From positions 1 to 64,000 of the forward strand of contig JAUWIG010000048.1 in the NCBI GenBank assembly GCA_030605475.1: a stretch of DNA of 64,000 nt, written 5' to 3'. Every line of letters begins with the position of its first letter. Position 1 is the first letter of the stretch. The position numbers and the translations under genes were made by a program. The notes under the pieces are model-generated. The model saw only the letters and a program-made list of their open reading frames with translations. It did not search any database and was not told the DNA's origin. This DNA is from Planctomycetota bacterium. GTDB lineage: Bacteria; Planctomycetota; Phycisphaerae; Sedimentisphaerales; Anaerobacaceae. Shown here piece by piece: positions 1 through 40,999 of this stretch.

Positions 1-307
1 AGACCGAGACCGTAATAGAGTCTCCGGCTTTGTATTCCGGTTCAGCGCCGTTCGGCAGTCGCATCTCTTTGACAAACTTCTTCGGTGTTGTACCGGCTTT
101 TTTGGCATGTACAACTGCCGGGTTCTTTCTGCGCGAGGGCTTTACATCATCATAACCAAGCTGAATAGCATTGTAGCCGTCTGTCTCGGCCATTTTGACC
201 TGCATAACCACACAAGGGCCGGCTTGTATGACCGTAACGGGCAGTAATTTGCCCGATTCGTCATAAACCTGAGTCATCCCAATCTTTTTTCCCAATAACA
301 TCGCCAT
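1..307 (-). CDS. rplC: 50S ribosomal protein L3, N-terminal part (cut by window edge)
   Basis: About 102 residues of L3, an early-assembling 23S rRNA-binding protein whose later loop reaches towards the peptidyl-transferase centre. The start reads MAMLLGKKIGMTQVYDESG, the L3 N-terminal signature (LGKKIGMTQ). The frame stays open to base 1, so the C-terminal half lies outside the window. It begins 16 bp after the rpsJ stop, in the usual S10-operon order rpsJ-rplC. The spacer is a short heptad tract, so no strong Shine-Dalgarno sequence is seen apart from GAG-type purines. Confidence 0.95.
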   Translation of the reverse strand, partial: MAMLLGKKIGMTQVYDESGKLLPVTVIQAGPCVVMQVKMAETDGYNAIQLGYDDVKPSRRKNPAVVHAKKAGTTPKKFVKEMRLPNGAEPEYKAGDSITVSV

Positions 308-329
308 TATCTCGTATCTCGCCTCACGC
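308..329. repeat. Short heptad tract in the rpsJ-rplC spacer
   Basis: Units of the ATCTCGT type repeat every 7 bp. The tract fills the whole spacer and runs into the rpsJ stop codon. It belongs to the same word family as the tracts before rplK and nusG. Confidence 0.55.
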
Positions 330-638
330 TTTTATTTTGACGAAGACGCCGGCTGGTACCACCAAACGATTCAACACTTCGACCGTTCGGGCGTTGGCCT
401 CGTGAATATCAATCAGCCGTTTGTGAGTCCTTAACTCAAACTGCTCACGCGACTTTTTATCAATGTGAGGGCTTCGCAAAACGGTGTATCTTTCAATACG
501 CGTAGGCAAAGGTACCGGACCACTGACACGGGCATTGGTCCTTCGAGCGTGCTCTACTATCTCCTTGGCAGATGCATCAAGCGCCCTGTGGTCGTAGGCC
601 TCCATTCTAATTCTGATTCTCTCGGTTTCAGTAGCCAT
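324..638 (-). CDS. rpsJ: 30S ribosomal protein S10
   Basis: S10 of 104 residues, the usual length. It is a 30S head protein and, as NusE, part of the NusB-NusE antitermination complex. The core contains GPVPLPTR and the C-terminal [14 protein letters not shown]-type end. It is the first gene of the S10 operon fragment, with rplC following on the same strand. A 546-bp gap containing a likely promoter (about 1108-1136) separates it from fusA, so it is probably transcribed as the head of its own operon with a long leader. There is nothing unusual in the protein. Confidence 0.97.
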
Positions 639-22619: not shown

Positions 22620-22805
22620 AGGGTGAAAAGTGGATAGCAAGGGTCAAGATTTAGCCACAGATTTCACTGATTGCACGGAAAAGTATAGCCATAAATTTTG
22701 CTTTGACGGGAATTGCGGTTTGGGGTAGTGTGTGGTTTGAAAGTCGAAGGTATCAGAAAAAAATGGTGGCTATATGCAAGAAAAAATAACAGAATCGTAA
22801 GGATT

Positions 22806-24689
22806 ATGGGAACGACTGCTGTGGAAATTAAATCATTTAGAATAAAGAATTATCGCTCAATAAAAGATAGCGGTGTGTGTTATCTGTCGGGCGATAATAT
22901 TACAATCTTAGCAGGAAAGAACGAGTCGGGGAAAACTGCAATTTTAGAAGCTCTGGAAGATTTTGATACAGAGGAAGAAATCAGAAAAGAAGCAATTCCT
23001 TACCACAATCCAGAAGCCGTGCCAGAAATAGCGGTGACTTTTGAAATAGACAAGGAAGCGCTTCAGGAAATTTCTGAGGAGATAGACTTTGAGCTAGAAA
23101 CGCTTAAATCGAGCGATATAGAAATTATAAAAAAATATCCGAAGGAGTATTCTGTTTCTGAAGAAAGTAAAAAAATGTTAGGTATAAGCGAGAAGGAGCT
23201 GTTAGGAAAAAAGGAAAAAGAAATCGCAGATACTTACAAACGAATTAAGAAAATCTATTCAAAAATTTCAGAGCCTAGTGGAATTTTGCCCGAAATAAAT
23301 GTCGACGACATTTCCAAGTTTAAAACCGAACTTGAGAATTTTCAGAATCAAACAGAAGCTGATTTGGAAAAAATACCCGATGAAGAAAAAAGGACTAACT
23401 TCGTAATAGGGCTTAATGAAATCGTATGCAACCTTGAGGAGATAGAGGGTTCAAGATCAGTAGAGCAAAAGTTCATTGACACAATAGCAACATACTGGAT
23501 TCCGAACTTCATTTTATTTATCTCCTTTGAGGATGTGTTCCCTTCGGAAGTGCCTTTGGGTGAAGCTGCTGATAACGAGTTAATTAAGGATCTGGCTATT
23601 ATCAGTGATTTAAATTTGGAACTGATTACATCCGATTCTATTGCTCTTAAAACAAAACACAAACAACAACTGAATGTGAGACTGAAAGAAGATTATCAGA
23701 AATTTTGGACGCAAGACCTTACAAATTTACATATAGAGTGGGATTCTGAGAAATTATATTTCCTTATTAAAGAAGACGAAGACTTTTATCCCCCGAGTTT
23801 ACGAAGCAAAGGGAAACAGTGGCATTTGGCATTTTATGTAAGAGTTGCTGCAAGGGCAAGGGAAGGCGTACCTAACATCATACTAATTGATGAACCAGGG
23901 CTCTTTCTTCATGCTAAAGCTCAAAAAGATGTTCTTAAGAGACTGGAGGATTCAGCTCAGGATGCACCAATCATTTTTTGTACTCACTCACCCTATTTAA
24001 TCAAAATTGGTAAGCTTGGTAGGATCCGCTTAATCTCACGAACTACGAAAAAAGGAACTCTTATTTCAAACAAAATCCATAAGGGGGCTGATAAGGAAAC
24101 TCTAACTCCAATAATAACAGCAATAGGTTTAGATTTGTCGATGGGCTTGGACATAGCAAAAGATAACAACGTTATTCTTGAAGGAATAACAGATTATTAC
24201 TACATATCAGCGTTTAAAGAGCTTCTCAACTACAGCTTCGATAAAGAGGTACACTTTATTCCAAGTGTAGGAGCGGATAAATTCAACTTTTTAGTGCCGT
24301 TAATGATTGGATGGGGATTAAATTACTGTTGTGTTTTAGATAATGATGACAAAGGAATACGCATAGAAAAGAAATTATTGGAGGATTTCGAGCACATAGG
24401 TGTTAAGACAAAATTGGTTGGCAAAAGCAAAGGTGAAGAGATAGAGGACTTATTTGAGAGGGAAGATTTTATCAAATATGTTTTAAATGAGAATTCTAAC
24501 GAAGTAGTAACCGACAAAAAGAATTCTGAGATAATTAAACAAAGAGATAGAAACTATGATAAAGTGTTACTGTCTAAATTGTTTTTAGAAAAAATAAAAG
24601 ACGGAGGTATTTCTCTTTCAGAAGATACGAAGGGAAACTTCAGAAATCTCCTCGAAGAAATAAATAGATTGATGTTTCCAAAAGTTTAG
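22806..24689 (+). CDS. OLD-family ATPase/TOPRIM nuclease (candidate phage defence)
   Basis: A 627-residue protein. An N-terminal ABC/SMC-type ATPase has Walker A GKNESGKT (37-44), a long Glu/Lys-rich helical insertion (about 80-225), a signature-like SLRSKGKQW (331-339), Walker B IILIDEP (358-364) and the switch histidine THSP (393-396). A C-terminal TOPRIM domain has Glu459 (ILEG) and the D512-x-D514 pair (LDNDDKG). This is the OLD (overcoming lysogenisation defect) architecture, whose members include phage-restriction nucleases. No UvrD-like partner gene is adjacent, so it is not a Gabija pair. The start at ATG 22806 has TAAGGA just upstream. An earlier in-frame TTG has no ribosome-binding site. 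It is A-rich compared with its neighbours, which suggests acquisition. Confidence 0.85.
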   Translation: MGTTAVEIKSFRIKNYRSIKDSGVCYLSGDNITILAGKNESGKTAILEALEDFDTEEEIRKEAIPYHNPEAVPEIAVTFEIDKEALQEISEEIDFELETLKSSDIEIIKKYPKEYSVSEESKKMLGISEKELLGKKEKEIADTYKRIKKIYSKISEPSGILPEINVDDISKFKTELENFQNQTEADLEKIPDEEKRTNFVIGLNEIVCNLEEIEGSRSVEQKFIDTIATYWIPNFILFISFEDVFPSEVPLGEAADNELIKDLAIISDLNLELITSDSIALKTKHKQQLNVRLKEDYQKFWTQDLTNLHIEWDSEKLYFLIKEDEDFYPPSLRSKGKQWHLAFYVRVAARAREGVPNIILIDEPGLFLHAKAQKDVLKRLEDSAQDAPIIFCTHSPYLIKIGKLGRIRLISRTTKKGTLISNKIHKGADKETLTPIITAIGLDLSMGLDIAKDNNVILEGITDYYYISAFKELLNYSFDKEVHFIPSVGADKFNFLVPLMIGWGLNYCCVLDNDDKGIRIEKKLLEDFEHIGVKTKLVGKSKGEEIEDLFEREDFIKYVLNENSNEVVTDKKNSEIIKQRDRNYDKVLLSKLFLEKIKDGGISLSEDTKGNFRNLLEEINRLMFPKV

Positions 24690-26779: not shown

Positions 26780-28957
26780 ATGGTGTTAAAATCCGATGCG
26801 GTTTGGGCAATAGATATAGGCAATAATTCTTTAAAAGCACTGCACTTGAGCGTTGCCAGCGGCGTTGTTGAAGTAATCGGTTTCGACAATATCCAGCACG
26901 GCAAAGTTCTTACCGGAAGCGGGATAAAGGCCTCTGAAAGGGACGAGCTGATTGCCTTAAGTCTGCGTCAGTTTGTAAGGAATAATAATCTTGGCAGAGA
27001 TGATGTAGTTGTTTCTGTTCCGAGCCAGAACAGTTTTGCGCGTTTTGTGAACCTTCCGCCAGTTGAGCCGAAGCGCATTCCCGAAATAGTCAGGTTCGAG
27101 GCAGCTCAGCAGATTCCTTTTGATATTGATGATGTGCAGTGGGACTGGCAGTTGATGACGGAGGTCGGCGGGCCTGAAAGCAAGGTTGGCATTTTTGCGA
27201 TTAAGAATGAAGTAGTCACCTCGGTATTAGAGCACTTTAGCAGAGAAAATGTGACGGTTGGCTATGTTCAGATGGCGCCGATGGCTCTGTATAATTACGT
27301 GGTGTACGACCGTCCTGATTTGGTTAAGTCCGACGACCAAGCCACCGTTGTTCTTAACATAGGAGCGGAAAATACCGATTTGGTTGTCTGTACAAAGTCG
27401 ACAGTTTGGCAGAGAAATGTCCCGATGGGCGGTAATGCTTTTACCAGAGCGATAGCAGATACATTTAAGCTCAATTTTGAGAAGGCGGAGAAACTGAAAC
27501 GTACCGCTCCGATGAGCAAATATGCCCGGCAGATACTGCAGGCGATGAGGCCGGTTTTTACAGATTTAGCTTCCGAAGTTCAGAGGTCACTTGGCTATTA
27601 CAAGAGTTCCAATCCCAATACTAAACTAATCAAGGTTATTTCCCTGGGCGGGGGGACGAAGATGCGCGGCCTGCTTAAGTATCTGCAGCAGACACTTCAG
27701 ATGCCTATTGAGATGCCGGATTCGTTTAAGAAGCTTACGATAGGTTCATCTGTCTCTGCAGCGAAGTTCCACGAGAGTGTCTGCGATTTTGGTATTGTTT
27801 ATGGTCTTGGTTTGCAGGGTTTGGGCCTGGCCAAGATAGGGAGTAACCTGTTACCGCGTAGTATTGCCCGGTCAATGGCCTGGGCAGGTAAAGCCAAGCA
27901 CTTTACTGCTGCGGCGTGTGTACTGCTTCTGGTTTTAGTATTGTCCTTTGGGAGAACGATTTTCGACAAGGCCAATTACAGCGATAAAGCAGACGTGCGT
28001 CAGAAAGTCAGCAGTATTGTTAAGACAGCCGGCCGGGCCCGTGACAAGCTCAAAGCCCAAGAAAGTAAAGGTGTAGGTTTCGAAGCGACAATACAAAAGG
28101 CATTTGAACCTTTTAATTATCGTAATGTGGTTCCACTATTGCATCAAACCATAATATCAGCCTTGCCAAACGAAAAAAACAATCCCGAGCAAGAAGGTCT
28201 TTATAAGGCTTTTGACGAGGCGCGAGTAGAAGATGTTTTGGGGGTTTCCCGTGAGGAACGAAAGCAGATATTTGTAACGAGTATGTCAGTTTGCTTTACA
28301 AATGATGTTGCGACTGCGAGGTTTGGTAGTCCGGGCAGGGGTAAAAGGAGGAGAGGCAGCGATTATGAGGACGATTATGATGACGATTATGGAGGGGGAG
28401 CTAAGTATAGAGTGGTGGGGTATTCAAGAGTCGGAACAGGTGCCGCTGCGGGAGCGGAGATGTGGGAAGGGGCTGGATTTGTAGTAACTATAGCTGGGTA
28501 CAGTCCCTATAAAAACATAGGTGAATTGATGGACCCTGCCGGAGTGGAAGACGACCAGAGTAGATGGGGGGTTATTACCCGTCTGATGCATCTTGATGAT
28601 ATTACTGATGGGAACAGCCCATTTAAGCTGTACAAGAAGACCGAGGTCGAGCATTTTAAGTTGGAAACAGGTGAAGTGGATTGGGATGCTGAGATGCCTG
28701 CAGGGATAGGGCTTGAGGATGTCAGATTTGAAAAAGCAAGGGTAGAAAAGGCAAGGCATAGGGGCAGTGGTGAGCGGGTTTTGATTGACCCTATGACAAA
28801 AGAGATTATCAGTAAGGTTGTTGAGTTTGACGAGTACGGAAGAGAGAAGATAGACAAGTCTGGCAACATTGTCCATAAAGTCAACGACCATTGGTTCATA
28901 TTAAATGTTAAATTTCTCTGGAAAGAAGCACCGGAGGAGATTGAAAGTAGTGTATAG
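26780..28957 (+). CDS. PilM-PilN fusion-type pilus/secretion assembly protein
   Basis: A 725-residue protein. Residues 1-350 are PilM-like (FtsA/actin fold): AIDIGNNSLKAL (10-21), RFEAAQQIPF and the late ISLGGGTKMRGL. Directly after comes SNLLP (355-359), resembling the INLLP motif by which PilN binds PilM, then one membrane helix (about 374-390) and a periplasmic part with LLHQTIISALP, as in PilN. PilM and PilN would thus be covalently joined across the inner membrane. An Asp/Tyr-rich linker (528-537) precedes a C-terminal domain of unknown type. It is first of three plus-strand genes, divergent from mtaB. A separate PilM and PilN lie at 39-41 kb, so this is a second, diverged alignment complex. 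Confidence 0.75.
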   Translation: MVLKSDAVWAIDIGNNSLKALHLSVASGVVEVIGFDNIQHGKVLTGSGIKASERDELIALSLRQFVRNNNLGRDDVVVSVPSQNSFARFVNLPPVEPKRIPEIVRFEAAQQIPFDIDDVQWDWQLMTEVGGPESKVGIFAIKNEVVTSVLEHFSRENVTVGYVQMAPMALYNYVVYDRPDLVKSDDQATVVLNIGAENTDLVVCTKSTVWQRNVPMGGNAFTRAIADTFKLNFEKAEKLKRTAPMSKYARQILQAMRPVFTDLASEVQRSLGYYKSSNPNTKLIKVISLGGGTKMRGLLKYLQQTLQMPIEMPDSFKKLTIGSSVSAAKFHESVCDFGIVYGLGLQGLGLAKIGSNLLPRSIARSMAWAGKAKHFTAAACVLLLVLVLSFGRTIFDKANYSDKADVRQKVSSIVKTAGRARDKLKAQESKGVGFEATIQKAFEPFNYRNVVPLLHQTIISALPNEKNNPEQEGLYKAFDEARVEDVLGVSREERKQIFVTSMSVCFTNDVATARFGSPGRGKRRRGSDYEDDYDDDYGGGAKYRVVGYSRVGTGAAAGAEMWEGAGFVVTIAGYSPYKNIGELMDPAGVEDDQSRWGVITRLMHLDDITDGNSPFKLYKKTEVEHFKLETGEVDWDAEMPAGIGLEDVRFEKARVEKARHRGSGERVLIDPMTKEIISKVVEFDEYGREKIDKSGNIVHKVNDHWFILNVKFLWKEAPEEIESSV

Positions 28958-28996
28958 GCGCTTAGCGTATTTGCTGTCATCTATCGACTAAGCGCC
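28954..28996. repeat. Heptad tract after the PilM-PilN fusion gene
   Basis: ATAGGCG, CTTAGCG, TATTTGC, TGTCATC, TATCGAC, TAAGCGC in 7-bp register start inside the stop codon. The word order parallels the tract at 756-793. Confidence 0.75.
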
Positions 28997-29134
28997 GGTG
29001 GAGTAGGTTGGTGAACTAAAAAGGTGATTAGATTCAGGCTGCTAAGGCGCAAATTAAGAAGGTAGAAGTAAAAAGGCAAGAGGAAAAACTTTTTACCTTG
29101 CGTTGGTGTCCTGGGGACGAAAAAAGGATTCATA

Positions 29135-30367
29135 ATGGATATCCCAAAATTTGGTGATTTTATACGAAAACTAAGTGTTATTAGGAATTATTCGTCACTG
29201 CTGGTGCCGGTTGTTGTAGGGCTGGTTTGTGTACTTGTTTTTGTTGTTACACTATTGATGGGCAGTAAGTTTAAGGAGGAAATAGCCAAGGAAAGTGTCC
29301 CGATAGGCAAGAAAGTTAAATCGCTGAGCAAAAGTGTCGTTTCCAGAGACCAATGGAGCGAAGAGGAAAAGTATCAGCGGGCTTATGAGGAAGATGCCAA
29401 TCAAATAGCACTTTTAGCCGAGCAAAGCACTCAAAGGCAGTTATTAAGCTATAAGATATTTCCTGAGCCGAAAGATACCTCTACGTTGATTTTCGAGGGA
29501 TTCGGCTGGCAGTTTCGAGACAAAGTAGAGAGTCTAATTGACCGTGTAAATGCGCGTGATTGTCCTACAGATGCCGAGTTGCAGAGAAGTTTGCAAAGCT
29601 CCGGTTCATTAGGCCCCCGTCTTGGCGGGCGAAGATTATCGAGGAGTTTGGGCGAGCTTGGTGCTACGATAAGGGACGTTCTTTGCCGAGCGAAAGCAGA
29701 GTCTGCTTCTGTTTATGCTAATCCAGTTGGTTTGAGTGGGTACGAGTTCTGGAGAGAATACAAATATGCCACCTCCGGCAGTTGGGACGAGGCGGTTAAG
29801 GACTGCTGGTATTGGCAATTGGCTTATTGGGTCATCGAAGATGTCATCGATACGATAGGCGCTTTGAATTCCGGGTCGAATAGCGTTTTCACATCGCCGG
29901 TCAAACGGCTTATGAGCGTAGATTTCATTATGGGCGGCAGGGGGGTGAGGTCTGGAGGAAGAACAACTGGTAGTCCAAGTTATGTTTTTTCAATTGAAGA
30001 AGGTCTTACAATGCCCTGGACGGGTAGGGTTTGCAATGATGGCATTGATGTTGTGCATTTCAATGTTGTTGTTGTGGTTAGTGCAGAGTCGGTTTTGCCG
30101 TTTATGCAGCAACTTTGCAGTGCCAAGCGACATAAATTCAAAGGGTATTTCGGCGATGAGCAGGAGCAGACCTTTAAGCATAATCAGATAACGATTTTAG
30201 AAAGTAATATTGGGTCAGTTGACCGGGCAGATGAAACTCATGAGCTCTACCGCTACGGCGAAGATGCTGTGGTAGAATTGGATTTAATTTGCGAATATAT
30301 CTTTAACAAAAACGGCTATGATGCAATTAAGCCTGAATCAATTAAAAGACTCGCGAGTGGTGGATAG
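29135..30367 (+). CDS. Single-pass membrane protein, PilO-position, function unknown
   Basis: 410 residues. One membrane helix lies at about 21-43 after a short cytoplasmic N-terminus, followed by a helical charged stretch (45-100) and a mixed periplasmic region. No family motif was recognised. Topology and position behind a PilM-PilN fusion suggest a PilO-like role in an inner-membrane alignment complex, but the protein is much longer than PilO (about 200). A good ribosome-binding site (AAAGGA) lies upstream of ATG 29135. The 177-bp spacer before it holds a small GTAAAAAG/CTTTTTAC hairpin. Confidence 0.55.
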   Translation: MDIPKFGDFIRKLSVIRNYSSLLVPVVVGLVCVLVFVVTLLMGSKFKEEIAKESVPIGKKVKSLSKSVVSRDQWSEEEKYQRAYEEDANQIALLAEQSTQRQLLSYKIFPEPKDTSTLIFEGFGWQFRDKVESLIDRVNARDCPTDAELQRSLQSSGSLGPRLGGRRLSRSLGELGATIRDVLCRAKAESASVYANPVGLSGYEFWREYKYATSGSWDEAVKDCWYWQLAYWVIEDVIDTIGALNSGSNSVFTSPVKRLMSVDFIMGGRGVRSGGRTTGSPSYVFSIEEGLTMPWTGRVCNDGIDVVHFNVVVVVSAESVLPFMQQLCSAKRHKFKGYFGDEQEQTFKHNQITILESNIGSVDRADETHELYRYGEDAVVELDLICEYIFNKNGYDAIKPESIKRLASGG

Positions 30368-30421
30368 TGAGTCGGGCCACGAACCACGAGATGCGAGATA
30401 CGTAATGTGAGATACGAGATA
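30366..30421. repeat. Heptad tract, CGAGATA word family
   Basis: Eight units from AGTGAGT and CGGGCCA to CGAGATG, CGAGATA, CGTAATG, TGAGATA, CGAGATA in strict register fill the whole spacer and end in the A of the next start codon. The final GAGATA-like purines are all that could serve as a ribosome-binding site. Confidence 0.85.
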
Positions 30422-32349
30422 TGGGTAGAAAAGGCGGTAATTTTTTCGAAGAACATGTTGAAAAGATGGTCTTTGCCATTGTTGGGGTTGTCTGTATATG
30501 GCTTTTGATTACCCGTGTTCTTTTCAGTCCCAGCTGCGTCGAATACGAGGGTAAGAAGTTTAGTTCTGGTAATATTGATAATTACATAAGCGAGCAGGCA
30601 GAGCTTTTGGAGGACAAGCTGGACCACAAGCCCGAGCTGTCGCAGACATATAGGCGGAGATTAAGCGAATTTATTGCTCTGGTGGACTCAGCCATACGTG
30701 AGATTGATGTTGGCCTCAGTCTGCCGCAACCTAATAGAGTAATGGAAGTAAATGTTAGAAGGGCATATCATATTCCGCAGATTAGTGAGGTCAACGAGGT
30801 ATCAGTTGAGCATATCAGGGCAGTTGCTTATGTTCCTACCGAAAAGATTACCGAAGAGAATATTTATGATAGAGCTGAGCATGAGCCGAACGACCTTGAT
30901 TTTGTGACTGTGGAAGCGAAGTTTGGTGTTGTTGGATTGTATGTGGATTTTTATGAAAGTTTTGCCGGTGATAATGTTCCTGACCAATGGCGTGACCCGT
31001 GCCTTGCTGACCCGATTTTTGCGGCAGTGCAGTTGCAAAGACGAGAGCTGCTCTCTGAGCCCAACGGTAGTTGGAGTGATTGGCAAATCGTGCCTCGAAC
31101 CAGGATTGACCATCGCAAAGGAATGTTTGAGGTTATAGAAGATGTTGAAGAGCTGCCGGTGGGTGGAATAAAAGTGCGTCTGATTCAATTTGATGATGTG
31201 CAGGTGAGAATGGACCTGCTGCAGCCGCAGGCTTATAAGATTGCGTCTGCAGAGGAGGAGTGGTTTCCTCCGTCATTGCATAAGAGATTTGTAAAGATGC
31301 AGAGCGATTTAGAAGCGCAAGAGAAGCGTAAAGCCAGAGCGGCAAAAAGGGAGGAGCGTGAAAAAGGTCAGTCAGGGCGGCGCAGCAAGATATCACAAAC
31401 AAGAGTACGTTCGACAGCGGTAGGTGATGAGTATGGTGATATGGATGAATATTCTGATGCTGAAGTGTCTTCAAGGAAAACTTCTGCAAGAAGAGCCCGT
31501 ATGGAGCGTTTGAGTGAGCGATTGAGTGAGCGCTTGAGCGAGAAAGAACGTCTGGAAAAAAGCAGAGAGAGAGGGACTTTAAAGATAGAAACGATAGGTG
31601 ATATTTATGATGAATTAGGTGGGATTTTGATTACCGAGCAAAGTGACCTTGGCAAGATGCGTGAGCCGTTGGTGTTTTGGGCGCATGATGACACTGTTGA
31701 GCTGGGGAGGAGCTACCAATACAGAATTCGGTTTGGTGTTTTTAATCCGGTAGCCGGGACGAATCAGTTCAGCGAGCAAGACAAACACTTCAAGAGCAAA
31801 GCCATTTTATGGAGCGAGTTTTCCGGCATAACGGAGACAGTAGAGATTCCGAAGAGGTTGTACTTTTTCCCGCGTGCTATACAAGAGCTTGCCAGGACTG
31901 TGACGGTGACAGTCTGCCGGTATGCGTTGGGTTATTGGCATAGTAAGGACTTTACGGTCAAGCAGGGAGAGGTTATAGGCAAGGTTGTTGAGTCCGAGGT
32001 TACAGAGGATGAAGTGAAGAAGAATATTACAGTGCCGGAGACAATTAATTATGCTACTAGAGTAGTTTTGGTGGATGTTATACCTATTAATGATTGGTGG
32101 GGCAGGAGGAGTCTGCGCCCCAGACATTATTTTGATATGCTTTACAGCTTTGATGGGACGCACATAGAGCGCATACCTATTAAAACGAGGTATTGGGCTG
32201 AAGAATTGCAGGCCAAGTTTAATGAAATCAAGAAATCCGAAAAAGAGCCGAAAGAACCTTTGCGAGTGTGGGGCAGTAGACGTCGTGGATACAGGCGGGC
32301 TGTTCCTGGGCTGGAATATGAGGACCTCGATGAGTCAGGTGAATGGTAA
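30421..32349 (+). CDS. Single-pass membrane protein with basic coiled-coil segment, function unknown
   Basis: 642 residues. One membrane helix lies at about 16-34, then a long extracytoplasmic part. Residues about 290-400 are highly charged and include LSERLSERLSEKERL, a coiled-coil-like stretch rich in Arg, Glu and Ser. The end is Arg/Tyr/Asp-rich. No known domain was recognised. As third gene of the plus-strand trio with the PilM-PilN fusion, it may be the PilP-like or outer partner of that complex. This is inference from position only. It is convergent with the beta-mannosidase gene, which ends 42 bp away. Confidence 0.5.
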   Translation: MGRKGGNFFEEHVEKMVFAIVGVVCIWLLITRVLFSPSCVEYEGKKFSSGNIDNYISEQAELLEDKLDHKPELSQTYRRRLSEFIALVDSAIREIDVGLSLPQPNRVMEVNVRRAYHIPQISEVNEVSVEHIRAVAYVPTEKITEENIYDRAEHEPNDLDFVTVEAKFGVVGLYVDFYESFAGDNVPDQWRDPCLADPIFAAVQLQRRELLSEPNGSWSDWQIVPRTRIDHRKGMFEVIEDVEELPVGGIKVRLIQFDDVQVRMDLLQPQAYKIASAEEEWFPPSLHKRFVKMQSDLEAQEKRKARAAKREEREKGQSGRRSKISQTRVRSTAVGDEYGDMDEYSDAEVSSRKTSARRARMERLSERLSERLSEKERLEKSRERGTLKIETIGDIYDELGGILITEQSDLGKMREPLVFWAHDDTVELGRSYQYRIRFGVFNPVAGTNQFSEQDKHFKSKAILWSEFSGITETVEIPKRLYFFPRAIQELARTVTVTVCRYALGYWHSKDFTVKQGEVIGKVVESEVTEDEVKKNITVPETINYATRVVLVDVIPINDWWGRRSLRPRHYFDMLYSFDGTHIERIPIKTRYWAEELQAKFNEIKKSEKEPKEPLRVWGSRRRGYRRAVPGLEYEDLDESGEW

Positions 32350-35284: not shown

Positions 35285-36760
35285 TTATTTGTCAGGTTTC
35301 TCGACTCTGGTAATAGCAGGTTCCGGTCCGCTGAACTCTGTTACTTCAAATCGCTTTGATTCAGCTTCTGAGAGGACTGCCTGTTCGACAATCCTGGGAG
35401 TTATGAAGATAAGCAGTTCGTTTGTAACGGTTTCTTCGCCTTCAAATCTAAACAACCCACCCAGAAGTGGTATATCGCCGAGGAATGGTATCTTATTGGT
35501 CTGTTTCGAGGCGTCCCGTTTGCGAAGGCCGCCAATTACAACCGTCTGGCCGTCTTTTACCAATGCTATTGTGTCAACTTTGCGTGTATCAACAGTCGGC
35601 GGGCTCGTTGAACCTACCTGAACACTAAATTCCGGTGCGATGTGCAATCTTATTATACCGTCCCTTGCAACATGCGGTTTAACCGTAAGCTCGACGCCGA
35701 CCTCTTTAAATTCGGTCGATGTCATTAGGCCGCCTTGCTCTGTTTGTGTTTCTTCTTCGTAAGGAATTTCGCGTACAATTTTGAAATTGGCAACTTCATT
35801 ATCAAGTACCAGAATTCGAGGGTTGGCGAGGAGCTTGGCGGAGATGTTTTCCTGCTCTGCTCTGATAATGGCGTCAATGTTAATACTGGCGTTTAGTATG
35901 CCAAAACGAATCAGTGCGCTGGTGTCAGTAGTATTGTTGAGTACTCCTGAGAAGCCGCCGGTGATGTAGGGGTCCCTTCTGGTCTCAATGTACCCTGTGC
36001 TTCCATCCTTTTTGGTATACGACATGGCACTACTGGTTGCGCTGCCGAGAGTTCCCGCCCCGCCGGTACCGTAGTTGGTTCGCCTGCCCAGTTGCCAGTC
36101 TACGCCCAGGTCAAAGCGGTCGGTAGAGGTTATATCATATATTCTCACCTCGACGAGTACCTGTGGTGTTATGCGGTCTATTTCGTTGACGAATGTTTCC
36201 ATGGCCTTCATCTTGCTCTGAGTATCGGTAACTATTATGTGGCTGGTGCCCGGGTTGGAAGATAAGGAGCCGCGGTTCGAGAGAAATTTCTTCAGGGCCT
36301 TTTCTACTTCTATAACATCTGCGTAAGTAATTCGAAAAATTTTGTTGATAAGGGCTTCTTCTCTCTCAGTGATTTCCCCGATAGGCGCTATTCTTATCAT
36401 ATTCTTATCTGCTACGTAGCCGTAACCGTGCGCTATAAGAATATTGTTCAGCGCTTCTTCCAGCGGCACATCCGTAAGCGTGGCGGTCACTTCGCCGATG
36501 ACCTTGGGGTTTTTGATAATGTCCACATCCGCCTGTTCAGCCATTATCCTTATGACGTCGTCGATGGGTGTGTCCCTGAAATTGACGCTTATTTTTTTTA
36601 GCATCCGCTGCTCGAGCGTTGTCAAGACCTCAATGTTTTCCAAGTCATTATCATCGTCCTGGGCGGCGGTGATAGGGCAAGCAGCCATAACGAGTCCGAC
36701 GGCGATGCCGAGCCAGGTCAGAAACTTTAATCCTCTACGTTTTATCATGGAGCCTTTCAT
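35285..36760 (-). CDS. Secretin (PilQ/GspD-type outer-membrane channel)
   Basis: A 491-residue secretin with an N-terminal signal peptide (about 1-33, ending near ITAAQ). A secretin/TonB short domain follows (ISVNFRDTPIDDVIRIMAEQADVDI, then DVPLEEALNNILIAHGYGY), next an N1-type KH fold (TYADVIEVEKALKKFLS, GTSHIIVTDTQSK). The conserved beta-barrel core has RDGIIRLHIAPEFSVQ, VVIGGLRKRD and the IPFLGDIPLLGGLFR signature, ending LLIFITPRIVE. It forms the outer-membrane pore of a type IV pilus or type II secretion system. It is the last gene of the minus-strand assembly operon, 53 bp after the PilP/GspB-like gene. Confidence 0.92.
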   Translation of the reverse strand: MKGSMIKRRGLKFLTWLGIAVGLVMAACPITAAQDDDNDLENIEVLTTLEQRMLKKISVNFRDTPIDDVIRIMAEQADVDIIKNPKVIGEVTATLTDVPLEEALNNILIAHGYGYVADKNMIRIAPIGEITEREEALINKIFRITYADVIEVEKALKKFLSNRGSLSSNPGTSHIIVTDTQSKMKAMETFVNEIDRITPQVLVEVRIYDITSTDRFDLGVDWQLGRRTNYGTGGAGTLGSATSSAMSYTKKDGSTGYIETRRDPYITGGFSGVLNNTTDTSALIRFGILNASINIDAIIRAEQENISAKLLANPRILVLDNEVANFKIVREIPYEEETQTEQGGLMTSTEFKEVGVELTVKPHVARDGIIRLHIAPEFSVQVGSTSPPTVDTRKVDTIALVKDGQTVVIGGLRKRDASKQTNKIPFLGDIPLLGGLFRFEGEETVTNELLIFITPRIVEQAVLSEAESKRFEVTEFSGPEPAITRVEKPDK

Positions 36761-36813
36761 AGTAGTCCCTTTCTTGAATTAGCGATTAAGCAGCAGCATT
36801 TCTGTTTACTTTT

Positions 36814-37677
36814 TTACTGAACTTTTTGTGTCCATTTTCTGCCGTTCATTTCAAACTCAACGCTACGTTTATTTATCTTTATGATGGTTGCACCTGATAT
36901 TTTGTCACCCACATACAGTATTTGACCGCTAATCATTGCGCATGGGTTATCCTTGCTATAGACAATGGCCTTTACGATTAGTTTGCCTGATGTATCGGTT
37001 TGGCTCTGAGCAATCGAAACCGAGCCGAATTGCGTAGGGTCGCGAAGCCTTGTCGGATAAGGTTCCGGAATCTGCCAATCAATTTCATGCTCAGAACCAG
37101 CAACGACTTTTGTCGGCTTAAAACTGTGAAGCTCACCTGTTTTGCCCGAAGGCGTGCTCAGTACCAGTGTAAGCATAAAAATCAAGAGGATAAAGAGAAC
37201 GGGCACCGATATCAGCACTACTTTTTGCTTTGTGGCACTGACGCCCGGTTTTGGTGTAAGTAGTTTGTCTTTTATTTGTTGCCAGGCCTGTTGCCAAGGG
37301 GCTTGTTTTGCAGCTTTTATGGTAACATCAACTTCAGGGGGTTTAAGTAGAGCAGCTTCGAGTTTGGGTGGAGTAACTTCAGGTGATTTAGGCGGAGCAG
37401 CTTCAGGTTGTTCGGGTGTAGCAGTTTCAGGTTGTTCGGGCGGAGCGGCTTCGGATTGTTTGGGTGGAGTAACTTCAGGTGGTGGCTGGGTAGGTTGCTG
37501 AGATTCTGGCGCCGGCGAAGTTGGTTGGTCTGGAGCAGGTGGTTTCGAAGGGGCGTGGTTAGCGCAGTGCGGTGTAGGCGCGCCAGAAGACTGCTGGGCG
37601 TCGCTTTTTTTCGGAATCGGCACGCCATCAAAAATCACTGAAATTTCTTTGTGCAACCCTGTTCTATGTTTTGGCAT
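36814..37677 (-). CDS. PilP/GspB-like proline-rich membrane protein
   Basis: 287 residues: a cytoplasmic Pro/Glu/Ala-rich stretch (about 40-115, with repeated PEQPE and PPK words), one membrane helix (about 152-170), then a periplasmic C-terminal domain with MISGQILYVGDKISGATII and VEFEMNGRKW. That last block resembles the homology domain of PilP/GspB/GspC proteins, which link the inner-membrane platform to the secretin. Its place directly before the secretin gene fits. Its start overlaps the end of the ParA gene by 14 bp, so translation is probably coupled. Confidence 0.72.
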   Translation of the reverse strand: MPKHRTGLHKEISVIFDGVPIPKKSDAQQSSGAPTPHCANHAPSKPPAPDQPTSPAPESQQPTQPPPEVTPPKQSEAAPPEQPETATPEQPEAAPPKSPEVTPPKLEAALLKPPEVDVTIKAAKQAPWQQAWQQIKDKLLTPKPGVSATKQKVVLISVPVLFILLIFMLTLVLSTPSGKTGELHSFKPTKVVAGSEHEIDWQIPEPYPTRLRDPTQFGSVSIAQSQTDTSGKLIVKAIVYSKDNPCAMISGQILYVGDKISGATIIKINKRSVEFEMNGRKWTQKVQ

Positions 37678-38578
37678 TACTTATCTCCTCAGCCGAAGCC
37701 ACGTCATTGATTATCTCCTCAGCCGAAGCGTCGTTATTACTTATCTCCTCAGCCAGAGCGTCGTTATTACTTATCTCCTCAGCCGGAGCGTTGTCATTAC
37801 TTATGTCCTCAGCCGGAGCCCTGCCATTGATTATCTCCTCAGCCAAAGCCTTGTATTCAGCAGCACCTTTGCTTTGTGGAGCGTAAGTCAAAACAGGCTC
37901 ACCGGCACTTGGCGCTTCAGCCAGCCTTACAGTTCTGTGAATGACCGTATCAAATACCAAGCTGCCGAAAAGTTCCCTCATCTGTCTTTGTATTTGTCTG
38001 CTCAATGTTGTCCTGCTTTCGACGAAGGTCAGCAGCATGCAAGGTGTTTCCAGGCGTTGATTGAAGCGTTCCCTAATGATTGCTATGGTCTTAAGTAGTT
38101 GTTTTAGCCCCTCGAGAGCATAATAATGTGCCTGAATTGGTATTATTACATCAGTGCTCGCTACCAGGGCGTTCAACGTCAACAGACTAAGCGACGGTGA
38201 GCAATCAATAACGCATATCTCATAATTGCCATCTATATTGGCAAGCTGCCGGCTTAGTACGTATTCTCTTTCGTGTAGCGTTGCCAACTCATACTCGACG
38301 CCGGAGAGCAAAATATTGCTCGGAGCCAGATTAAGCCATCTCTCGCCGGTGCTTAGCACCACGTTGGAGATGGGAATTTGCGCATTGGTAAGAGTGTCAT
38401 AGATGGTTTTATCCAACGTCTCAGGGTCATAGCCAAATCCCAGTGTGGAGTGGGCCTGGGCGTCGAGGTCAATTAGCAGCACCCTCACGTTTTTTTGCGC
38501 AAAGGCGGCAGCGAGGTTCACTGCTGTAGTTGTTTTGCCGCAACCACCCTTTTGATTTGTTATTGCTATTGTTTTCAT
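37664..38578 (-). CDS. ParA/MinD-type ATPase with C-terminal decapeptide repeats
   Basis: 304 residues. It starts at MKTIAITNQKGGCGKTTTAVNLA (deviant Walker A KGGCGKTT). Switch I/Walker A' VLLIDLDAQAHSTLGF and Walker B YEICVIDCSPSLSLLTLNAL complete a ParA/Soj ATPase. After the ATPase core the last ~60 residues are six copies of a ten-residue AEEISNNDAS-like repeat, encoded by exact 30-bp DNA units. No parB-like gene is adjacent. The gene is embedded between pilO-like and pilP-like genes and overlaps the latter, so it may place or count pilus/secretion complexes, as ParA-like proteins do for other envelope machines. That role is inference. Confidence 0.85.
   Translation of the reverse strand: MKTIAITNQKGGCGKTTTAVNLAAAFAQKNVRVLLIDLDAQAHSTLGFGYDPETLDKTIYDTLTNAQIPISNVVLSTGERWLNLAPSNILLSGVEYELATLHEREYVLSRQLANIDGNYEICVIDCSPSLSLLTLNALVASTDVIIPIQAHYYALEGLKQLLKTIAIIRERFNQRLETPCMLLTFVESRTTLSRQIQRQMRELFGSLVFDTVIHRTVRLAEAPSAGEPVLTYAPQSKGAAEYKALAEEIINGRAPAEDISNDNAPAEEISNNDALAEEISNNDASAEEIINDVASAEEISNAKT
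37681..37860. repeat. Six 30-bp tandem repeats at the 3' end of the ParA gene
   Basis: Units begin TTATCTCCTCAGCC at 37681, 37711, 37741, 37771, 37801 (one G for C) and 37831, exactly 30 bp apart. They encode an acidic ten-residue peptide. The copy number is likely variable between strains. Confidence 0.93.
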
Positions 38579-38618
38579 TTTTATATCGTAAAAGTGAGCC
38601 GAGAGCCCATCGGCTCTT

Positions 38619-39188
38619 TTAGCTGTCCTGCTGCTTTCTGACAAAAATCGCCAGGTCCATACGTACCCGGTGTCCTAAATTATCGTAGCTTGCGCGAGTT
38701 ATTGTGAACTTATCTACAAAGATGACCGGCTGGTACCTCTCCAGAGCATTTAAGAAAGCGGCAAACCGATTGAAACCCGAAGTGAAGCTGATATCAATGT
38801 GATTCTCACGTATGTGGTTACAATTTGGTATTGCTGAGCCTTCGCGCTTGCCTACGGTTCTAATGCTGAACGAACTGACGTTTTTCTCCTTGGCAATTTC
38901 ACTTATATCGAGTGTCAAATTAGCCGAATCTCTATAGTCAGTAACAAAATCGTTCAATTTATGTCGTAAAAGGTCGACCTCTTCATTTAACTGAATTTTG
39001 TTTTTCTCTTGTGTTGCCTGGAGTATGGAGCGGTACATCTGCTTTTTCTCGTTGAGCTGCCTTTTGATACGTTTTTTGTCCTTTCTTTGTGGCGCCAGCA
39101 CGAAAATATTGGCTAATAGAAACAGTACGAAACAACCTGCCCATACTAAAGCCGCTGTTCTAAAATATTTTTTATAAATCACTTTCAT
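38619..39188 (-). CDS. PilO-like pilus assembly protein
   Basis: 189 residues. It starts at MKVIYKKYFRTAA with a single membrane helix (about 10-32), then a coiled-coil stretch (KKRIKRQLNEKKQMYRSIL to about 90) and a ferredoxin-like C-terminal part with HIDISFTSGFNRFAAFLNALERYQP, as in PilO. With PilN it forms the inner-membrane alignment complex. Upstream in-frame codons to 39356 overlap pilN and are rejected. It lies 10 bp after the PilN-like gene. The ParA gene follows after 40 bp. Confidence 0.82.
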   Translation of the reverse strand: MKVIYKKYFRTAALVWAGCFVLFLLANIFVLAPQRKDKKRIKRQLNEKKQMYRSILQATQEKNKIQLNEEVDLLRHKLNDFVTDYRDSANLTLDISEIAKEKNVSSFSIRTVGKREGSAIPNCNHIRENHIDISFTSGFNRFAAFLNALERYQPVIFVDKFTITRASYDNLGHRVRMDLAIFVRKQQDS

Positions 39189-39198
39189 AAAAGTTCCA

Positions 39199-39855
39199 CT
39201 ACAATGCCGGTTTGAAAATACAATCCATTTCATAAGAGACAACATCCTGTTGCTCAAGCGAACCAAGCTGCTGCGAAACTTTGATGTGCTCAAGCTTTGG
39301 TCCGAGCACGGCTGAAGAGCGAAGATTGTTTCGAAATTTCCTGATTGCTTCATCATAGCTGGCGGAGGCCAGCCCGGACTGTGGATTTCCGCAAATATTT
39401 ATCTGCAATGTTCTTACAGGGACAGTGACATCAACCATTTTTTGGGGGTTATCTTTTGCAGGAACTTTTCTTTTTATGGAACTATGCTTTACCTCAAACT
39501 TTGTTAACACCATCGAATCCGGCATATTTTTTACCAGTGTCGCCAAAATAGGCGACCATTGAGTATACCTGCCAATGGCGGACGAAACTTCCGATAGGCT
39601 GCTGTTTATGTCGCTTTTCTCTCTTCCGAGCGTGTCTTGCAACTCCACAGCGTCCGACAATTGGTTAATCTTTGTTTCGTAAATAGCTATTCCCTGCTCC
39701 TGTATTGATGCGATAATGTTGGTGTGCCAATGATAGCCGAATATTGCTATTGCGATAATAGCGGGTACTGTAAAGGTTGCCACGGCAATAGCTATACCTT
39801 CAGGCCCGCTCTTTGCCGGAATACCCTGGCCCTTTAACAAATCCATAGTGAACAT
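39199..39855 (-). CDS. PilN-like pilus assembly protein
   Basis: 218 residues: a short cytoplasmic N-terminus (MFTMDLLKGQG), a hydrophobic helix (about 22-42), a coiled coil (IYETKINQLSDAVELQDTL) and a periplasmic part with WSPILATLVKNMPDSMVLTKFEV, a typical PilN pattern. It starts one base after the PilM stop codon (TGA-T-ATG), so the two are translationally linked. The canonical INLLP motif is replaced by MDLLKG at the N-terminus. MTMDLL from the fourth codon is an alternative start. Confidence 0.82.
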   Translation of the reverse strand: MFTMDLLKGQGIPAKSGPEGIAIAVATFTVPAIIAIAIFGYHWHTNIIASIQEQGIAIYETKINQLSDAVELQDTLGREKSDINSSLSEVSSAIGRYTQWSPILATLVKNMPDSMVLTKFEVKHSSIKRKVPAKDNPQKMVDVTVPVRTLQINICGNPQSGLASASYDEAIRKFRNNLRSSAVLGPKLEHIKVSQQLGSLEQQDVVSYEMDCIFKPAL

Positions 39856-39856
39856 A

Positions 39857-40999
39857 TCAGATAGACCTCATAGCAAGACCGGCTGCTACTGCCATTGCAG
39901 TACCGTTTTTTTGTAGAATATCTTGATAGTGCTGCTCTGCGTCGCAGCGCACGTTGTCAAACGGGTTCCACAACACAGCTTTTGCTGGAAGCCGGCTGTC
40001 CAATAACTCGATAAATCCTTTGGCCAGAGCGAAACCGCCGCAGACAAATACCTTTTCAACGATGGTTGATTTCGCTTCCTGAGCCGTGTAGTAGCGCAAC
40101 GTATCAGTAACATCGGTAATCAATTTCTGACAGGCCTTGGCCAAACTGTCACCAAATTCTAATTGAAGCTGGCTCGAATCCTCGCGGCTGGTTAGAGCGC
40201 TGCTGACAGTTTTTGCTGGGACATCGCATTCACTTGCAATCTGCTCAACGATATCGTTACCGGCATAGGCCATATCGCGAATAAACGGTAAGTTATTATC
40301 ACTCATAATTGCCACAGTGGTGTGGGAGCTGCCGACGTTCAAAATGGCTGTTGCTCGGCTGGCCTCTGGTTCTTCGTATTCGTCGCTGAGGCCATTTTGC
40401 GACTTTTCGGGTTTGCCTTTTGTGCTCTTTTGAGAATGAGCTTCCTCGTAAAATGGGAGGGCCTCGAAGCAATTCAAAAGCGCCAGTCCGTCCACATCCA
40501 TCAGGACATTGTTAAGAGAAGCCTTTTCAGTAAGTCGGCTTTTGCTTTTTATCACCTTATTCGTCGCTGCCACTAAAAAGCCACTGATACTATCCTTGTC
40601 ACTGGGTATCAATCGGTACTCAACGACACCATCGTCAACGTTGAACGGGCAAACCTGCGCTGCTTCGAGCATGACCGCTCCTTGCATTTCTTCCATTGAC
40701 AACGAGGGAAACTTAAAGTAGCGGACGGCCACTTCCGGGCCGCATACCCCACAAACAGCCAATCGCGTCCTAATCCCGGTTGACTCAACACAGTTGCGAA
40801 TTGCCTTGACGGCGTTTATTTCTTTGGAAGTTTGGTCACTTTCTGTTTCATCAGCAATGTCAGCTATACCGGCTGCAGTAACTGTGTAGCCGCCGTCGTC
40901 TTTGCGCAGCTGGATTAGCTTGACTGACGATGAACCGATATCTAGACCCAGGACTTCGTCCTGTTTGAGTTTAAGCAATTGTTTCCAATCCAGGTTCAT
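39857..40999 (-). CDS. pilM: PilM-like cytoplasmic pilus assembly ATPase fold
   Basis: 380 residues of the actin/FtsA-like PilM family. Motifs are VLGLDIGSSSVKLIQL (phosphate 1), AVMLEAAQVCPF, ATAILNVGSSHTTVAI (phosphate 2), VEKVFVCGGFALAKGF (adenosine) and a late AVAAGLAMRSI. It binds the cytoplasmic tail of PilN. The region around 205-235 is a low-complexity insertion (KSTKGKPEKSQNG). The ribosome-binding site GGAGGAG lies directly before ATG 40999. It heads the PilM-N-O-ParA-P-Q series. Confidence 0.9.
   Translation of the reverse strand: MNLDWKQLLKLKQDEVLGLDIGSSSVKLIQLRKDDGGYTVTAAGIADIADETESDQTSKEINAVKAIRNCVESTGIRTRLAVCGVCGPEVAVRYFKFPSLSMEEMQGAVMLEAAQVCPFNVDDGVVEYRLIPSDKDSISGFLVAATNKVIKSKSRLTEKASLNNVLMDVDGLALLNCFEALPFYEEAHSQKSTKGKPEKSQNGLSDEYEEPEASRATAILNVGSSHTTVAIMSDNNLPFIRDMAYAGNDIVEQIASECDVPAKTVSSALTSREDSSQLQLEFGDSLAKACQKLITDVTDTLRYYTAQEAKSTIVEKVFVCGGFALAKGFIELLDSRLPAKAVLWNPFDNVRCDAEQHYQDILQKNGTAMAVAAGLAMRSI

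Follow-up and report, generated by a model that had tools for sequence, protein, structure and literature searches.

A conserved PilM-PilN-type fusion locus of Planctomycetota and its kinship with the mucin-uptake cluster of Akkermansia

Background

The MUL2 cluster of Akkermansia muciniphila includes the genes Amuc_1101-1100-1099-1098 and represents a system already described in Verrucomicrobiota (PMC13174399, PMC5332112). The MUL genes, including Amuc_1101 (MUL2B) and Amuc_1102 (MUL2A), have been described as mediating mucin uptake or transport and as likely to help in attachment (PMC13174399, PMC12418764); Amuc_1102 has been termed pilin-like (PMC13174399). Here we analyze three consecutive genes, P1, P2 and P3, from a 64,000-nucleotide stretch of a Planctomycetota bacterium (Phycisphaerae, Sedimentisphaerales, Anaerobacaceae; assembly GCA_030605475.1, contig JAUWIG010000048.1, positions 1 to 64,000; hereinafter, the window), which probably encode the alignment complex, seated in the inner membrane, of a type IV-filament machine common to Planctomycetota and Verrucomicrobiota.

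Two other systems are pertinent for comparison. The type IVa pilus machine, PilMNOP-PilQ, resembles the trio in the PilM domain, the LLP motif, the PilO fold and the order M-N-O-P-Q, but in the trio, M and N are fused, N and P are assigned by position or motif, and the window has a canonical PilMNO-PilQ set in addition to the trio. In the type II secretion system (T2SS), GspL is itself a fusion of PilM-like and PilN-like parts, GspM is PilO-like and GspC contacts the secretin, so that joining the two domains in a single chain is not unusual per se. P1 shares this arrangement with GspL but contains a full PilM domain and misses the GspL model, and no homology to GspC or PilP was detected in P3.

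The trio and the MUL2 cluster

P1, P2 and P3 are open reading frames (ORFs) at neighboring positions on the plus strand, separated by gaps of 177 and 53 bases; the three genes that the reading of the sequence alone had proposed are real, with P2 and P3 each crossing the membrane once. Their features are as follows (aa, amino acids; all on the plus strand).

26780-28957, plus strand: P1, 725 aa, PilM-PilN-type fusion, relative of Amuc_1101 (MUL2B)
26810-27817, plus strand: PilM-like actin-fold domain of P1, residues 11-346, Pfam PilM_2 at E 2.4e-36
27845-27856, plus strand: NLLP motif of P1, residues 356-359; in PilN this motif binds PilM, and in P1 it is present in cis
27893-27964, plus strand: single membrane helix of P1, about residues 372-395 by hydropathy (helix 360-402 in the model)
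27989-28954, plus strand: periplasmic part of P1, about 320 aa, coiled coil followed by an alpha/beta domain, in the PilN position (AlphaFold2 model m52daae22f0a4)
29135-30367, plus strand: P2, 410 aa, N-terminal membrane helix, coiled coil and PilO/Amuc_1100-type domain
30421-32349, plus strand: P3, 642 aa, N-terminal membrane helix, split FN3 domain and C-terminal beta domain, in the PilP position
31051-31668, plus strand: insertion in the FN3 domain of P3, residues 211-416, charged helices and a low-confidence linker
31858-32190, plus strand: C-terminal beta domain of P3, residues 480-590, with the phylum-wide motif W..F.V..GE.IG...TG..LVDI

Like the MUL2 cluster (Amuc_1098-1102; NCBIfam NF045709, NF038287, NF042912), the planctomycete set comprises, collinearly, a PilM fusion, an Amuc_1100/PilO-type protein, a third protein and a large secretin, with P1 matched by profile, P2 by profile and fold, and P3 set beside Amuc_1099 by gene order. 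The differences are that the planctomycete sequences fall far under the equivalog cut-offs, the C-terminus of P1 is longer, P3 has 642 aa and a split FN3 domain, the secretin is unlinked in this genome, and no Amuc_1102-like pilin was identified.

The PilM half of P1 is recognized by Pfam: PilM_2 scores 125.8 bits against a gathering score of 27, as expected of a type IV pilus PilM, and the nucleotide motifs (IDIGNNSLK, LNIGAENTDLVV, LGGGTKMRGL) are intact as judged by eye. In an alignment of 21 sequences from across the phylum, P359 of the NLLP motif is invariant and L357 and L358 are conserved at more than 90%; the first residue varies among P1 relatives, from N to S, D or others. The complete PilM domain, NLLP motif and single membrane helix that had been recognized from the sequence alone are all present. 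With its PilM domain, membrane helix and periplasmic arm, P1 has the MUL2-type architecture, and its best NCBIfam match is indeed NF045709, Amuc_1101_fam (233 bits, E 6.2e-69, residues 53-436), with the pilM model TIGR01175 far below at 133.5 bits; for the window's canonical PilM, the ranking is the opposite, 138 bits for pilM and 84 for Amuc_1101. A homolog of P1 from a deeper planctomycete class spans the Amuc_1101 profile almost end to end (30-595 to 34-597 of 608). From these profile scores, we conclude that P1 and Amuc_1101 are kin; we do not claim strict orthology, given that the equivalog cut-offs are not reached.

The same scores bear on the possibility that the trio is a T2SS platform for enzyme export, with P1 as GspL, P2 as GspM and P3 as GspC. 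This interpretation draws on the GspL-like domain logic, on the existence of a secretin partner and on other T2SS-like clusters in the same genome that encode fusions of 490-523 aa. We nevertheless consider it quite unlikely: P1 scores only 18.8 bits against the GspL model TIGR01709 (cut-off 65), compared with the Amuc_1101 and PilM_2 scores above, and retains the nucleotide motifs, whereas the other T2SS-like clusters have their own ATPase, platform and pilins, and the partner secretin (see below) best fits Amuc_1098.

The periplasmic part of P1 carries the R..helix..LP..strand motif typical of PilN. Pfam PF05137 (PilN) has no match in this region, and hhalign comparison of the C-terminal part (P1C) to PilN yields weak hits, at 41% with the deep-class profile and 5% with the Phycisphaerae profile, at the helix-LP-strand motif. 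A PilN fold of the P1 C-terminus is at most plausible.

P2 and P3

Neither P2 nor P3 has a Pfam or NCBIfam match of its own, and each has one strong N-terminal helix by hydropathy. Both had been described as lacking a recognizable family, which does not hold for P2. P2 and the C-terminal part of P1 (residues 350-725), which are in the same frame, were read through under code 27 and modeled as one chain, joined by a linker of 60 residues that does not belong to either natural protein (mean predicted local distance difference test score, pLDDT, 83.8; predicted template modeling score 0.77). A Foldseek search of this model against all PDB chains placed 6laf (Amuc_1100) at the top, with probability 0.96, along with 2rjz (PilO; 0.92) and 6kny (again Amuc_1100; 0.89); all matches fall short of E 0.001 and the alignments lie in P2. 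VIA-align superimposed 6kny_A at Z 11.7 (3.3 Å over 160 residues, in the range of P2 residues 88-394) and PilO 2rjz_A at Z 7.2. Independently of the model, the deeper-class P2 profile matches Amuc_1100 among PDB sequences at E 6.8e-7 over nearly the full length, followed by PilO from 3jc8, a model of the type IVa pilus machine (E 0.013). Because the fold matches and the profile match agree, P2, the gene following P1, is identified from prediction and profile as an Amuc_1100/PilO-type protein, in line with the PilO position suggested previously.

For P3, the AlphaFold2 model m401f77eee56d (mean pLDDT 85.8) includes an FN3 domain that VIA aligns with the Ihog FN3 at Z 6.8; the aligned range is 120..479, with just 109 residues aligned. 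The insertion of approximately 200 residues that splits this domain drops to pLDDT 41-51 at residues 321-360. Foldseek returned weak immunoglobulin/FN3-type rows only. In the deeper-class P3 family, FN3 is detected by sequence (E 2e-22 against titin; Pfam fn3 1.9e-7), and profile-profile comparison aligns residues 430-562 of the Phycisphaerae P3 with 180-298 of the deeper-class P3 at 99.0%. Compared with PDB sequences, only the deeper-class P2 and P3 profiles produced matches; the Phycisphaerae profiles of P1C, P2 and P3 retrieved nothing credible. By gene position, P3 may be a counterpart of PilP.

Conservation across Planctomycetota

P1 has a match in 147 of the 149 Planctomycetota genomes; among the matches listed, the best one is in a frame of at least 520 aa in 112 of 119 genomes, and some weaker matches hold an in-frame stop and correspond to a canonical PilM with PilN behind it. 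Within the class of the window, 59 of 61 genomes have a P1 match, every one at 288 bits or more. Co-occurrence of the trio in planctomycetes had been put forward as a check on the sequence-only reading, and it is borne out: the order, sizes and spacing of P1-P2-P3 are kept in 59 of the 61 Phycisphaerae-type loci with enough sequence, and because order and sizes are so retained, the trio is not a chance arrangement. In the wider phylum, an N-terminally anchored protein directly follows P1 in 72 of 75 loci, and 64 of these 75 have either a pair of such proteins or a single one together with a secretin. In profile-profile comparisons, P1C, P2 and P3 each pair with their own counterpart across Phycisphaerae, Planctomycetia and deeper classes, at 96.2-99.8% (98.8% for P2 between classes). 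Cross-pairs reach 20-25% for P2-P3 and 44-83% for P1C-P2, the latter as expected from the shared helix plus coiled coil.

A scan for Verrucomicrobiota loci returned, among its best 80, loci of Planctomycetota/Phycisphaerae exclusively, and a viral contig collection contained no P1 relative, hence no sign of phage carriage there. Promoter and terminator scans of the locus gave chance-level output only. At one locus (L119), the P1 frame is broken, with 429 aa and P2 946 bases further on, despite 77% identity, which could be due to a frameshift, an assembly error or decay.

The secretin partner and the canonical set

The operon includes no secretin, and in this genome the Amuc_1098-type secretin is not linked to the trio. 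In the wider phylum and deeper classes, however, 45 of 75 loci have a secretin, mostly of 850-1000 aa, no more than 6 kb away; in the window's class, hand counting found one on the same contig and strand in 22 of 61 genomes (20 downstream, 2 upstream), none of which belongs to the window's own order. The best counterpart in this genome, encoded on contig C54 (L074:4418-7678), is a TPR-secretin of 1086 aa. It scores 92-113 bits against five of the linked secretins, compared with at most 60 bits for the other secretins of the genome, and among NCBIfam models it matches Amuc_1098_fam best (E 5e-26). We infer that it is the partner of the trio. Just upstream, a 380-aa gene (L074:3042-4184), 53-55% identical to the N-terminal region of the secretin, is a partial tandem duplication of the latter.

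The window contains, on the opposite strand (35285-40999), the normal PilM-N-O set noted previously, together with PilQ, as identified by Pfam and NCBIfam scans:

39857-40999, strand opposite to the trio: canonical PilM
39199-39855, strand opposite to the trio: PilN-like gene
38619-39356, strand opposite to the trio: PilO-like gene
35285-36760, strand opposite to the trio: PilQ

Given this proximity, the trio might work for the PilQ machine, 3-8 kb away, as an accessory or paralogous alignment complex; sharing of motor proteins would be required either way. We regard this as very unlikely, given that many other genomes have a dedicated TPR-secretin in linkage with the trio and that the fusion is the sole PilM-like match in at least 5 Planctomycetota genomes (G004, G022, G030, G086, G145). 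For these two reasons, the trio machine is separate from the nearby canonical set, which upholds the original suggestion of a second alignment-type complex.

Proposed mechanism

If the trio is the alignment complex of a MUL2-related machine, P1 would provide the cytoplasmic, actin-fold PilM ring subunit, and the LLP motif and membrane helix of the same chain would tie this subunit covalently to a periplasmic arm in the PilN position. P2, as the PilO/Amuc_1100-type partner, would pair with this arm, whereas P3 would extend from the inner membrane with its FN3 and beta domains and dock the platform on the outer-membrane TPR-secretin. ATPases, platform protein and pilins would be supplied from other places in the genome; three unlinked PilT-family ATPases (L075:10311-11444, L077:5934-7070, L078:7161-8255) are possible motors. 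The most likely output would be a retractile pilus or a short pseudopilus to which polymers bind and which conveys them, by way of the secretin, to the large periplasm of planctomycetes; we put forward this uptake function tentatively, as somewhat short of an even prospect.

Several observations weigh against this scheme. The equivalog cut-off of NF045709 (650 bits) is reached neither by P1 nor by any of the 149 Planctomycetota genomes, and NF038287 (Amuc_1100; cut-off 180 bits) does not match P2, the best score in the phylum being 22 bits. Pfam PF04351 (PilP) has no match in P3 or elsewhere in the genome. A fold search with the P1 C-domain (model residues 100-366) found phage tail terminators at Z ~5 and no PilN; we take the likeness to the terminators to reflect a common arrangement. 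The ORF list and Pfam scan revealed no ATPase, pilin or secretin in the trio operon, and a pilus or uptake role of the planctomycete genes is so far a prediction.

The lack of a pilin or ATPase in the operon, along with the phylum-wide conservation, is also what a static inner-outer membrane tether, with no filament, would predict, akin to the press-stud contacts of crateriform structures; inner-outer membrane contacts lacking known genes have been described (PMC5394234). The intact PilM nucleotide motifs, the pilin-like Amuc_1102 of the homologous locus (PMC13174399) and the secretin, which implies a gated pore, all speak for a filament machine instead, making the tether unlikely.

Implications

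The trio is the planctomycete branch of the system described in Verrucomicrobiota (PMC13174399, PMC5332112): P1 is an Amuc_1101 homolog, P2 is of the Amuc_1100/PilO type and the secretin is of the Amuc_1098 type, so the earlier characterization of the trio as undescribed and phylum-specific holds only in part. In the open-licence literature in PubMed Central, we found no account of the trio in Planctomycetota or of its near phylum-wide conservation. Planctomycetes take up whole macromolecules and have crateriform envelope structures with pili-like fibers (PMC5394234, PMC12078418); such fibers, to which dextran binds, sit on crateriform structures whose composition is unknown (PMC5394234). The hypothesis that pili act as molecular fishing rods has been stated in a review (PMC12078418). 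Genes assigned to crateriform structures or to macromolecule uptake were not found in this literature (PMC5394234, PMC12078418). A link between these observations and the trio gene set can be envisaged, and the trio offers a concrete candidate, amenable to testing, for pili and uptake structures that have yet to be identified in Planctomycetota. A bolder and rather doubtful proposal is that the PilM-PilN fusion, the PilO-type protein, the FN3 protein and the TPR-secretin form the core not only of the crateriform structures but also of their dextran-binding fibers, and are homologous to the Akkermansia mucin-uptake machine; if so, this four-component set would be the polymer-uptake machine of Planctomycetes, the genes for which are so far unknown. 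For genetics in Planctopirus limnophila, where earlier work produced deletions of three pilQ-like genes (PMC11958385), a near phylum-wide set related to the Akkermansia mucin-uptake locus provides a short gene list. The relationship further suggests that pilus-linked polymer uptake may be ancestral in the Planctomycetota-Verrucomicrobiota lineage.

Neighboring and other filament genes

Within the canonical pilM-pilN-pilO ... pilQ operon, window positions 37664-38644 encode a ParA/MinD-like ATPase. Window positions 36814-37677 encode a 287-aa proline-rich single-pass protein with a weakly GspC/CdsD-like C-terminal stretch, possibly the PilP of the canonical set. Elsewhere in the genome, orphan PilB/GspE-type ATPases (L075:6736-10288 and L076:6422-8761) adjoin CvpA (Colicin V production)-type membrane proteins, and N-terminal membrane helices are predicted for the L075 ATPase. 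At least four more type II/IV-filament clusters (L079, L080, L081, L082) carry their own ATPase, platform, pilins and either GspL-like fusions of 490-523 aa or PilM. Finally, positions 22713-24689 of the window encode an AAA-type ATPase with weak similarity (39 bits) to PtuA of a retron defence system.

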